Source: Lentisphaerota bacterium | GTDB taxonomy: Bacteria > Verrucomicrobiota > Lentisphaeria > Victivallales > Victivallaceae | Direction: 5' to 3' | NCBI GenBank assembly: GCA_017134815.1 | Contig: CP071032.1 | Coordinates: 1,856,001-1,920,000, forward strand | DNA length: 64,000 nt | In this document: positions 55,901-60,880 of the stretch, in pieces | How the letters are laid out: every line of letters starts with the position of its first letter | Position numbering within the stretch: position 1 is the stretch's first letter | Made by a program: the position numbers and the translations under genes | The notes under the pieces: generated by a model | Seen by the model: only the letters and a program-made list of their open reading frames with translations | Told to the model about the DNA's origin: nothing | The model's database searches: none

Positions 55901-57364
55901 ATGATTGATCAAATGAGAAAATTCGGTAAACTGCTGACTGTCGCAATGGTATTTGCCTCTATCTGCTGCAGTGGAGTCGCGGCAAGTACTGAAAAGCCAG
56001 TCAGTCAGCTGGTAATTTTTGGGGACAGTCTTTCGGATATTGGAAATTTCCCCGCAAACTACTACTCGGCTGCCGCCGGGAAGAACGCAGATGCCGCAAC
56101 GGCATTAAGTGACCTCACTACCAATTTTTATGTCCCGGTATGCAGTCCGGTTTTTATCGGAGAACAGGCATACACTGTTCCGATGGACTTAATTTTCAGC
56201 GGGTATAATGAAGCGTTCTCGTTGTCTGACCTGCAGCAGTTTGACCGTTACCTGCCGGCACAACCTCCGATTGACCAGGTCAAAAGAGAATGGCACAGCT
56301 ACCTCTGGCCGCAGTTTTTGATAAGCTACCTGAATAGTGATGACATGATTGAGGCTTCCGGAACCCAACTCTGGCCATGGACAGTCTGGGCGGACTGGGC
56401 CGGCAAAAACGATCAGCAAAAAACCGCGGCACTGCAGCAGGCCTCTGTAAATTACGCCTGGTCAGGAGCTATGTCCGACAATCAGTATCACTATCCAAAC
56501 GGCGATGTGGTTTCAGGTGCTACCTTGCAGGAAATGAAAACAGCGTGGCTAGCCTATCTTAATGACAGACAAAACTATAATCTTGAAAATACAATTATTG
56601 TCCCTGGTCTTTTGAAGCAGATTGATTTTTTCATCCAGGATGTTAAAAGCGGGCGTATAAAAGTCAATAACAGGACCGTTTATACAGTATGGAGCGGCGG
56701 CAATGACTTGTTTAACGCGTTCAACTCACTGCTTAACGGCGGCTCCAAGACAGCTGCCCTGAAAACACTTACCTATCAGACGGTTGTCTGCAACTTTAAA
56801 GCTGTTTACCGGCTGATTAAAGAGGCAAAAGCCCAGAAAGTATATGTGTTCAACCTTTTTAACGTCAACATGACACCCCGTATCAACAGTGACGCCGCCT
56901 ATAGCAAATTCTATATAAAATTCATAATAAACACCCTGACCGTTCTCTACAACAAAGAGATGCAGGCTGCAGCAGGGATCATAAATAAGTTTGTCTGCAA
57001 CGGCCGACAGGTGGTGCAGATAGTAGATGTTAACAAACTTTTTGACGCAATGTCTAAAGGCAAAAAAGTAACCGGCACTTCACTGTATGACGGCGATTAC
57101 AGCGTTTTAAAATTTGCCCCGACCTATGGAGAAGCCGGAGAACTTTCGGCAGGCGGTGAATACTTCACTGCTGAAGCGTCAAAAGCCAATAACGCCGGGT
57201 ATATGTTCTGGAACGGAATTCATCCAGGAATGCAGGTTGAAAATGTAATTGGCTATGTACTTAAGAAAGCTGTCGCTGCAACCAGGACGGAACCGGCAGC
57301 CCCAGCCAAAGTGAGCTGGAGCTCTACACTCAATAAAATTAAAAATGCTGTTCAGGGTTTTTAA
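55901..57364 (+). CDS. Secreted GDSL/SGNH lipase-like hydrolase
   Basis: 487 residues. Signal peptide 'LLTVAMVFASICCSGVAAS' (a lipobox-like ICCSG is also visible). Block I is VIFGDSLSDIGNFP with the nucleophilic Ser; block III is VWSGGNDLF; block V is FWNGIHPG, where the usual Asp of DxxHP is Asn, so the catalytic His is kept but the helper acid is changed. COG3240-type phospholipase/lecithinase family. GGAGAAAAG precedes the ATG. It faces another SGNH enzyme gene across a shared terminator. Confidence 0.85.
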   Translation: MIDQMRKFGKLLTVAMVFASICCSGVAASTEKPVSQLVIFGDSLSDIGNFPANYYSAAAGKNADAATALSDLTTNFYVPVCSPVFIGEQAYTVPMDLIFSGYNEAFSLSDLQQFDRYLPAQPPIDQVKREWHSYLWPQFLISYLNSDDMIEASGTQLWPWTVWADWAGKNDQQKTAALQQASVNYAWSGAMSDNQYHYPNGDVVSGATLQEMKTAWLAYLNDRQNYNLENTIIVPGLLKQIDFFIQDVKSGRIKVNNRTVYTVWSGGNDLFNAFNSLLNGGSKTAALKTLTYQTVVCNFKAVYRLIKEAKAQKVYVFNLFNVNMTPRINSDAAYSKFYIKFIINTLTVLYNKEMQAAAGIINKFVCNGRQVVQIVDVNKLFDAMSKGKKVTGTSLYDGDYSVLKFAPTYGEAGELSAGGEYFTAEASKANNAGYMFWNGIHPGMQVENVIGYVLKKAVAATRTEPAAPAKVSWSSTLNKIKNAVQGF

Positions 57365-57418: not shown

Positions 57419-58621
57419 TTAATAAATAGTAGCTGGCAGCAGCCCTTGGTTTTCAATAAAAGCCTTTAATTTAGCAGCGAATTCGCCGGCAAAAGCTTTT
57501 GTCGGATGATGTCCATTACCTTCCAGGCCCACAGGGTAAAAGTATAAGATTTTAGGATCCGGACTTGTCGGGTCATTATTAAAATCACTTACCACCTTCT
57601 GGACAGCATCCCAGTATGCAGAGTGGTCAAGTGAACTGTAAGTCCCCCATAAAGTTAATATTATAACAGCGTCCGGGTTCATTACTCTAATGTCACTTAC
57701 AAACGTTTTGAGCGCAGCTGCATATTTATTTGGACCGTCAGCGTCCTGATTCAAAAAATAACCTGTCATGTCATTGGTACCGATATTTACAACGACAATG
57801 TTTGCATGCTCTGCTGGCAGAATGTTGTTACTTAGTTTATCATAACTGTATTGCAGCTGGTTATAAAAATCCGATAATTTTTTCTGCCAGTAAGGGGTAT
57901 TGGATATCGCTATCCCTGACAGTGCCGTATAAACCGCATTGATGGTAGAAACTGAAAGGTCCGGGCATAAATCTTTTTTAAGCTGTTGGGTGGTCTGGAA
58001 GGCATAGCTTATTCCCAGGTCGGAATCTCCGTAGGTACCACCGTTGGTGCCGTCAAAAAAGCCAGCAGTAATTGAATCTCCGTAAAAAGCGATTGTCTTG
58101 CGGATACTTGACTTACCAGCAATAATCGAATCACTGTTCAAGGCAATTTGCTTGAGGTTGACCAACGCTGTCGCTTTTTTGGAAGAGGTATCATCCGCCT
58201 CAGTTATTCTTAGAACTTCAATATGATAGGTTTTAGTTGAATCAGGCAGAGTCACATCTTGAGAGACCTCCTGAGTTGAGAGCGCAACCGGAACTGAAAT
58301 CAAAGTCTCTTTTACTTCAGTACTCCCCTCATACACAAAGATCCGGTATTTTACAGCTTGATAAGAGCCGTTTGGCGCGGCGTTTGACTGCAGAGTGACA
58401 GTAAAGCCGCTGCCCTGAACATTAAATCCTACACCGCTACCCTCCCAGTTCATCACGTTTATACCGTTTTGATTTGTGTTATAGCGCCCCAGGTAAGTAA
58501 TCCTCGTATCTGAGGGCAGGACTGTTTCACCCGCTGTCCCGGCAAAAGCCGGTACTGCCTTAAAGTTTGAAAACAACAAAATTAACATAAATAGAAAGGT
58601 TGAAGCAGCTGTTTTTTTCAT
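57419..58621 (-). CDS. Secreted SGNH esterase with CE2-like architecture
   Basis: 400 residues. Signal peptide 'FLFMLILLFSNFKAVPAFA'. Residues ~38-165 form a beta-rich jelly-roll-like domain ('TRITYLGRYNTNQNGINVMNWEGSGVGFNVQGSGFTV') as in carbohydrate esterase family 2; then an SGNH domain with AFYGDSITAGFFDG, VNIGTNDMT and GNGHHPTKAFA (catalytic His). The dyad-like lack of a nearby Asp matches CE2 enzymes, which deacetylate plant or microbial polysaccharides. Likely extracellular, perhaps acting with the chitinase. Confidence 0.83.
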   Translation of the reverse strand: MKKTAASTFLFMLILLFSNFKAVPAFAGTAGETVLPSDTRITYLGRYNTNQNGINVMNWEGSGVGFNVQGSGFTVTLQSNAAPNGSYQAVKYRIFVYEGSTEVKETLISVPVALSTQEVSQDVTLPDSTKTYHIEVLRITEADDTSSKKATALVNLKQIALNSDSIIAGKSSIRKTIAFYGDSITAGFFDGTNGGTYGDSDLGISYAFQTTQQLKKDLCPDLSVSTINAVYTALSGIAISNTPYWQKKLSDFYNQLQYSYDKLSNNILPAEHANIVVVNIGTNDMTGYFLNQDADGPNKYAAALKTFVSDIRVMNPDAVIILTLWGTYSSLDHSAYWDAVQKVVSDFNNDPTSPDPKILYFYPVGLEGNGHHPTKAFAGEFAAKLKAFIENQGLLPATIY

Positions 58622-59203: not shown

Positions 59204-60880
59204 ATGAACAAGAGAAAATTGCCTATCGCCTTTATTGCTGTCTTTGTTGTATTTTTTTGTATAAAATCATTTTCCAGCACTGTTATTCTTGGAAAAAAGC
59301 CCATAACCCCAGAACAAATTATAAGGATAGCTTACGGAGCTAAGGTAAAAATTGCTCCAGAGGCTTTTTCCAGAGTACAAACTGGTTTTAAAATTTTGAT
59401 CAGGGCAGCAGAAACCGGACATGAAATTTACGGACTGACCAATGGGGTTGGGGAAAATAAAGACCAGAGAGAAATCAATCCTGATGGCAAATTGTCAGAG
59501 GCAGTTGTAAAAGCTTCAGAAGAATTTAACAGATCTTTAATTCAGGCACATTGCGCGGCACTGGGCAAGGCTATGAGTATACAACTGGCAAGAGCGGTAA
59601 TGGCCACAAGGCTCAATAACATGCTCTCAGGTAATTCCGGAGTAAGCCCCAGGGTGGTAAAAATGCTGGCAGCTTTTCTCAATAGAGATGTGACACCTGA
59701 AATTCCAGAGTTCGGGTCAATTGGCGAAGCCGATATTACAGTTCTGGGACATATTGGACTTGCCATGATTGGCAAAGGGAAAGCCTATTATAAAGGAAAG
59801 TTGCTGCCGGCAGCAAAAGCCCTCAGCCAGGCCGGCCTCTCACCGATTGTACTGTTTGGCAAAGATGCACTGGCAATAATAAGCTCAAATGCATACTCTT
59901 CAGCACTGACAGCTTTTGCGTTAGTCAAACTCCACCATCTATCTAAAATATACAAACTGGTTTACGCAGCAAGTCTTGAAGGACTGAACGGCAATGTAAA
60001 CCCGTTTATGAAAGCAGCATTGCAATTGCGCCCCTTTCCTTATGCGAGCCGGGCAGCCGCTCAAATCAGGAAATATCTTAAAGGGAGTTATCTCTGGTCT
60101 CAAGATGAACAAAGAGCTCTTCAGGATCCTCTCAGTTACAGATGCATTGCTTTTATTGCAGGCAATCTTGACCGCTCCATTGCCAGTGTTGACAACCTGA
60201 TGAAAATCCAATATAACTCATCAGATGACAATCCGGCAGTTGTTTTAAGTTACAAAAATGAGAACTCTGATTATGCACACAAGAAAATAGGCGTTAAGTA
60301 TAATAACTCCAGTTGTGCTGTAGTTCCTACGGCAAACTTTGACCCGGTCATCTGGGCTGCAGGTTTCGAGCAGGTTTCGCTTGCACTGGGAATCTGCTCA
60401 AAGGCTGCGACAGCAAGAACCTTGAAACTGTCAAAAACCCAGTTCACTAACCTGTCACGCTTTTTAGGTACCAGAAACACAACTCACGCTTACGGAGCAA
60501 TACAAAAGCCTTTTGTCGCCCTCAATGCAGAAAATGAATATCTTGCTAATCCTATAATGCTGAATTTTGAACCAGTGGCTGGAGACATTGAGGATTTTGC
60601 AACAAATGCTCCTCTGGTTTTAAACAAGGTGTTGAAACAGATTGATAATTTGTACGGTATACTGGCGTTTGAACTGTTGCACTCGGCTCAGGCTCTGGAC
60701 CTGCGAAAGCAAAAAAATCCCCGTCTCAAGTTGTCATACGCGACTCAACTTCTTTTCAATAAATACCGGCAAGTGGTTAAGTTCATGGATAAGGACAGGG
60801 CTTTTTCCGATGACATAAAAAAATCAACAGCCTTTCTTGAAGATCTGGACATAAATCAATTTGAGCATTTACAAATCTAA
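59204..60880 (+). CDS. Exported ammonia-lyase (HAL/PAL) homologue lacking the MIO tripeptide
   Basis: 558 residues. N-terminal export signal or anchor (IAFIAVFVVFFCIKSFS). The rest is the lyase class I-like fold of histidine/phenylalanine ammonia-lyases: YGLTNGVG (catalytic Tyr76, usual YGVNTGFG), NRSLIQAHCAALG, PEIPEFGSIG, QDPLSYRC, SSDDNPAVV, and 'GDIEDFATNAPLVLNKVLKQIDNLYGILAFELLHSAQALDLR'. Where active members have Ala-Ser-Gly, which cyclises to the MIO electrophile, this one has Glu175-Ala176-Asp177; the NGT loop is also SSN. It is therefore unlikely to work as a normal MIO ammonia-lyase and may have a different or binding role outside the cytoplasm. No pathway neighbours. Confidence 0.85.
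   Translation: MNKRKLPIAFIAVFVVFFCIKSFSSTVILGKKPITPEQIIRIAYGAKVKIAPEAFSRVQTGFKILIRAAETGHEIYGLTNGVGENKDQREINPDGKLSEAVVKASEEFNRSLIQAHCAALGKAMSIQLARAVMATRLNNMLSGNSGVSPRVVKMLAAFLNRDVTPEIPEFGSIGEADITVLGHIGLAMIGKGKAYYKGKLLPAAKALSQAGLSPIVLFGKDALAIISSNAYSSALTAFALVKLHHLSKIYKLVYAASLEGLNGNVNPFMKAALQLRPFPYASRAAAQIRKYLKGSYLWSQDEQRALQDPLSYRCIAFIAGNLDRSIASVDNLMKIQYNSSDDNPAVVLSYKNENSDYAHKKIGVKYNNSSCAVVPTANFDPVIWAAGFEQVSLALGICSKAATARTLKLSKTQFTNLSRFLGTRNTTHAYGAIQKPFVALNAENEYLANPIMLNFEPVAGDIEDFATNAPLVLNKVLKQIDNLYGILAFELLHSAQALDLRKQKNPRLKLSYATQLLFNKYRQVVKFMDKDRAFSDDIKKSTAFLEDLDINQFEHLQI

Follow-up and report, generated by a model that had tools for sequence, protein, structure and literature searches.

The MIO prosthetic group of histidine ammonia-lyases (HALs) makes the primary amine of histidine leave. 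Ergothionase is a bacterial enzyme that degrades ergothioneine, a betaine and dietary antioxidant, and thereby sets trimethylamine free. It has been reported to lack MIO (PMC13405746), and the structure of the Treponema denticola enzyme has been solved (PDB 6s7j and 6s7q; Maurer et al., 2019). The breakdown of ergothioneine by bacteria has been taken to imply its prior import by the cell (PMC7653990), and a survey that had only 'histidine ammonia-lyase' matches concluded that ergothionase is rare (PMC13405746). Here, a gene is described that is located in a stretch of 64,000 nucleotides of a Lentisphaerota genome (the window) and that, as judged from its sequence, probably encodes an exported ergothionase, either periplasmic or membrane-tethered. 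A literature search, which had most subscription journals outside its coverage, retrieved no description of an exported ergothionase.

An Aromatic-Lyase Gene With an N-Terminal Leader

The open reading frame extends from 59204 to 60880 on the plus strand, on which all features of the gene given below are located. It starts with ATG, has no internal stop codon, and encodes 558 amino acids, which we annotate as a putative exported, MIO-less protein of the aromatic-lyase fold and an ergothionase-type trimethylammonia-lyase. Residues 35–522 match the Pfam family Lyase_aromatic (E = 5.3e-120), in agreement with the first-pass annotation, which had stated that most of the HAL/PAL scaffold is kept. 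The protein is far under all curated HAL, PAL, and TAL cut-offs of NCBIfam, e.g., it reached 266 bits with hutH, compared to a cut-off of 539. The export segment that had been proposed for the N-terminus is present: residues 1–24 (59204–59275) consist of NKRK, LPIAFIAVFVVFFCI, and KSFS, and the hydrophobic core of 15 residues has a mean Kyte-Doolittle value of 3.0. The leader was called by hydropathy (a charged N-terminus and a hydrophobic core), not by a trained signal-peptide predictor, and it is consistent with the low pLDDT of residues 1–23 and with the leaders common in the clade. Cleavage near S24 is our guess, and an uncleaved membrane anchor is possible.

The closest solved protein by sequence was the T. 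denticola ergothionase 6s7j (306 bits), and the next one was a HAL (179 bits). The first-pass annotation had suggested a fold prediction, and an AlphaFold2 model, generated with 31 window and locus sequences, yielded the lyase fold with a mean pLDDT of 85.8 and a pTM of 0.88. Stretches with values under 50 were confined to the leader and to residues 82–86 in the Tyr loop. A Foldseek search with the model had 6s7j as the top match (E = 1.7e-34, TM 0.80/0.89), followed by HALs.

A Shortened MIO Loop

Residues 175–177 (59726–59734) had been described as Glu-Ala-Asp in place of Ala-Ser-Gly. The three residues were read correctly, but the family alignment revealed a deletion of one residue rather than an exchange of the triad. 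The window protein has E-A-[gap]-D and thus one residue fewer than the A-S-G-D of HALs (GSIGEA-DITVL versus GSVGASGDLAPL, and likewise GSIGEA-DI versus GSVGASGDL), and D177 aligns with the normal conserved Asp that follows ASG. As Ala-Ser-Gly is missing and the GSIGEAD loop (residues 171–177, 59714–59734) is one residue shorter than GSVGASGD, MIO cannot form. The same shortening was common to every MIO-less relative aligned (about 85, from loci drawn from 84,980 species genomes and plasmids) and to 6s7j, and the commonest form among the ergothionase-like relatives was G[ST]xG[EQA]-[AG]D. The earlier proposal that the protein is independent of MIO is therefore supported by a short loop like that of ergothionase, which is reported to be devoid of MIO. 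The idea of new chemistry, in contrast, was wrong or too strong, because this loop is that of ergothionase, a branch that has already been solved and assayed. On this sequence evidence, a known enzyme type with known chemistry accounts for the motif. The alteration of the Asn-Gly-Thr loop of HALs, SSN at residues 227–229 (Asn229 at 59888–59890), is real, and S-x-N turned out to be the rule in the family.

Active-Site Residues and Inserts

The residues were compared between 23 leader-bearing clade members, including the window protein, 63 leaderless members, and nine enzymes with ASG; the residue numbers of 6s7j follow the sequence alignment of the window protein with the solved proteins. Tyr76 (59429–59431; Tyr53 of 6s7j and of HAL), which is the catalytic tyrosine of the superfamily, was found in 86/86 MIO-less members, and so were Glu463 (60590–60592; Glu411 of 6s7j, Glu414 of HAL) and the ergothionase-type Lys86 (59459–59461; Lys63 of 6s7j), the position of which is occupied by C, A, or S in HALs. 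The second ergothionase-type lysine, Lys435 (60506–60508; Lys383 of 6s7j), was present in 81 of the 86 members (22/23 leader-bearing, 59/63 leaderless), while the HALs compared have Tyr. Arg313 of the motif QDPLSYRC (60140–60142; Arg283 of HAL) was conserved in all groups; we take it to be the carboxylate-binding arginine, a role adopted from knowledge about HAL. The ergothionase structure paper of 2019 reportedly describes four essential catalytic residues.

At the 69 near-invariant columns of the family the window protein differs only by G31K (family median: 1), which argues against a decaying gene. Two inserts, residues 93–102 (59480–59509) and residues 351–370 (60254–60313), are specific for the leader-bearing clade, the members of which have both, and are absent from the leaderless members. 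The second insert is predicted to form a strand-helix-strand extension.

A Leader-Bearing Branch of the MIO-Less Group

A maximum likelihood tree of 93 rows was calculated with a quick method, with SH-aLRT values as the only supports. The MIO-less group, which includes 6s7j, was split from the HALs with a support of 100. Within this group the window protein belongs to a branch of 18 rows (SH-aLRT 99), 17 of which have an N-terminal hydrophobic leader (L041 was assigned by eye), while L020 is without a clear leader. The hosts of this branch are cyanobacteria, SAR324, Parachlamydia, Pseudonocardiales, and proteobacteria. The window protein has a long branch (0.89) and forms a sub-clade with proteins of Sinorhizobium meliloti pSymA, Burkholderia arboris, and Paraburkholderia (SH-aLRT 95). 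Taken together, alignment and tree verified that a conserved leader-bearing subfamily with the short loop, which the first-pass annotation had envisaged, exists. The new part appears to be a whole branch of ergothionases that would work outside the cytoplasm.

The leader-bearing protein of S. meliloti pSymA (L093:7929-9569) has Ala at the position of Lys435, which is otherwise near-invariant, and its neighborhood is devoid of ert homologues. It may be inactive or may act on another substrate. Copies that are similar to it are annotated as histidine ammonia-lyase.

Gene Neighborhoods of the Relatives

The neighborhoods of the leader-bearing members revealed a conserved gene set. In Paracoccus caeni (L034), four proteins exceeded the equivalog cut-offs of NCBIfam, i.e., thiourocanate hydratase (1042.7 versus 930), thiohydantoin desulfurase (564.7 versus 440), the hydantoin-5-propionate amidohydrolase ErtD (761.1 versus 600), and the N-carbamyl-L-glutamate amidohydrolase ErtE (586.3 versus 520). 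In B. arboris (L094), the hydratase, the desulfurase, and ErtD were also above the cut-offs, and the M20/ErtE homologue is truncated by the end of the stretch examined. The presence of these genes beside leader-bearing lyases therefore ties the clade to ergothioneine use. Homologues of urocanase and of the desulfurase were both present at 10/22 leader-bearing loci, six of which are near-copies from Pseudochrobactrum-like genomes. Several leaderless members from Bacillota also have homologues of the gene set nearby, and the adjoining thiourocanate hydratase was confirmed for one of them, from Sporosarcina (L031). Leader-bearing and leaderless members seem to act in one pathway.

A different arrangement was observed on a plasmid of Paraburkholderia sp. 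PGU19 (L095:4887-12364). Here the leader-bearing MIO-less lyase adjoins an ordinary HutU, which scored 966.7 bits with hutU and 687.8 bits with thiourocanate hydratase, i.e., under the cut-off of 930, and thiohydantoin desulfurase was not found at this locus. The cluster also encodes an MFS transporter and a protein of the OCD/mu-crystallin type, and a GntR-type regulator was recognized by eye. The locus is a candidate catabolic cluster for hercynine (histidine betaine).

In addition, a second type of MIO-less lyase was noticed, the motif of which, GSVGY---L, has three residues fewer than GSVGASGDL. It is encoded within 8 kb of a leaderless ergothionase in nine anaerobes, one of which is Clostridium symbiosum (L089:12577-14130, minus strand; L087:2665-4197 and L045:11316-12842, both plus strand; also L081, L092, L058, L071, L072, and L086). 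These proteins lack the two lysines, but have kept Tyr, Arg, and Glu. The tree placed them together with HALs, and one of them is barely above an NCBI HAL subfamily cut-off (525 versus 524 bits).

Genomic Context in the Window

The window lyase gene is solitary. An SGNH gene in divergent orientation lies 582 bp upstream of it, comM is located downstream, and the spacers are AT-rich. A scan for promoters and terminators revealed nothing beyond chance. Directly upstream two convergent, leader-bearing genes of the GDSL/SGNH esterase type are located (55901–57364, plus strand; 57419–58621, minus strand), and orientation and gaps speak against an operon with them. Just past the window (L096:6995-9931, minus strand) a membrane protein of 978 amino acids is encoded, which by eye appears to be spermine-synthase-like, with an FMN-binding-like C-terminal part. 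When 198 genomes of the class and 388 of the phylum were searched, no match other than the lyase itself passed the set limits. The GC3 of the lyase gene is 39%, compared to 46–56% in most neighbors, although a low value (42%) was likewise obtained for the adjoining SGNH gene. The simplest reading suggested by these data is a lateral gain of the gene.

No urocanase-family protein was found in the genome (3.2 Mb, 94% complete), and a breakdown of thiourocanate via the ert route is therefore improbable in this organism. The trimethylamine methyltransferase MttB was also not found in this genome. Several leader-bearing relatives have an ert-type cluster, i.e., the lyase together with thiourocanate hydratase and thiohydantoin desulfurase, whereas the window genome does not. 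Self-made ergothioneine was rejected, because the genome has no match to the EgtD family. Periplasmic respiration with thiourocanate as electron acceptor received no support from the two FAD_binding_2 proteins inspected, a TcuA-type dehydrogenase and a weakly fumarate-reductase-like protein, which are both devoid of a leader and are not encoded close to the lyase gene.

Discussion

The putative exported ergothionase would be a lyase-fold protein without MIO, presumably a tetramer, that would bind ergothioneine outside the cytoplasm. The beta-carbon would be deprotonated, with Tyr76 as the likely base, and trimethylamine would be expelled, leaving thiourocanate. Lys86, Lys435, and Glu463 may serve in activation of ring and thione and in acid/base catalysis, and Arg313 would hold the carboxylate. 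MIO would not be needed, because ergothioneine has a good leaving group from the outset in its trimethylammonium group, which histidine with its primary amine has not, and the fold could eliminate this group by acid/base catalysis. The proposed gain is that, with no importer for ergothioneine, the cell would free trimethylamine and thiourocanate outside its cytoplasm. The amino acids and the urocanate or cinnamate analogues that had been suggested as substrates are unlikely, and a trimethylammonium betaine is expected instead.

Several observations count against an ergothionase, namely the identity of only 37–39% to the characterized enzyme, the solitary gene, the lack of urocanase and MttB, the long branch, and two residues, F at position 170 and I at position 397, where nearly all other members have R/K and H/R, respectively. 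An exported trimethylammonia-lyase with an identical mechanism could act on another betaine, above all on hercynine, yielding urocanate and trimethylamine, or on S-methyl-ergothioneine or a further aromatic betaine. The Paraburkholderia lyase beside HutU, in the absence of a detected desulfurase, indicates that members of the sub-clade may have different substrates. The pocket motifs of the B. arboris and Paraburkholderia proteins are almost alike and therefore do not discriminate between ring substituents, and the enzymes for S-methyl-thiourocanate form separate NCBIfam families. However, no gene context is more common in the leader-bearing clade than the ergothioneine gene set, and we know of no hercynine-specific enzyme of the lyase fold. 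Another betaine is a rather improbable substrate of the window protein. The wider proposal that the leader-bearing clade comprises periplasmic betaine lyases beyond ergothioneine (e.g., for hercynine in Paraburkholderia), and that the window copy acts on one of these, splitting the scavenged compound into trimethylamine and an unsaturated acid with no need for import, is tentative and on balance unlikely.

It is very doubtful that the protein is catalytically dead, or repurposed as an exported protein for the binding of ergothioneine or of a ligand like it. The solitary gene, the long branch, and the missing downstream enzymes would fit, and the Ala of the S. meliloti protein implies that inactive members may exist, but the window protein retains all four residues typical of ergothionase and almost every position that is invariant in the family. 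It is practically ruled out that the gene encodes an MIO-dependent ammonia-lyase and that the region 59720–59735, for which the first-pass annotation had considered a sequencing error, was misread or misassembled. Nothing was found in favor of this reading, the protein has no Ala-Ser-Gly, 6s7j and all MIO-less relatives have the short loop as well, and the two ergothionase-typical lysines are absent from HALs.

If an exported ergothionase clade exists, it would uncouple ergothioneine breakdown from import, with products outside the cytoplasm and no ergothioneine transporter. Surveys based on 'histidine ammonia-lyase' matches may then overlook a broad range of divergent members, for which databases still have the name HAL, and the short loop together with the two lysines offers a simple sequence test for ergothionases. 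The remaining interest lies in the exported clade and in the solitary occurrence in the window genome.

With HutH (PF00221, TIGR01225) the window protein has the fold, Tyr76, Arg313, and the overall architecture in common, but HutH has the Ala-Ser-Gly triad, neither Lys86 nor Lys435, and no leader. The T. denticola ergothionase shares the lyase fold, an equally short MIO-less loop (SSIGEGDIT), and Tyr53/Lys63/Lys383/Glu411 as counterparts of Tyr76/Lys86/Lys435/Glu463; unlike the window protein, it lacks the leader and both inserts. The B. arboris protein has the leader, the inserts, the short loop, and both lysines, belongs to the same sub-clade, and is 47% identical; its gene is located beside those for thiourocanate hydratase, thiohydantoin desulfurase, and ErtD, whereas the window gene stands alone. 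The characterized ergothionase of Burkholderia sp. HME13 may be of the same type as the B. arboris protein.
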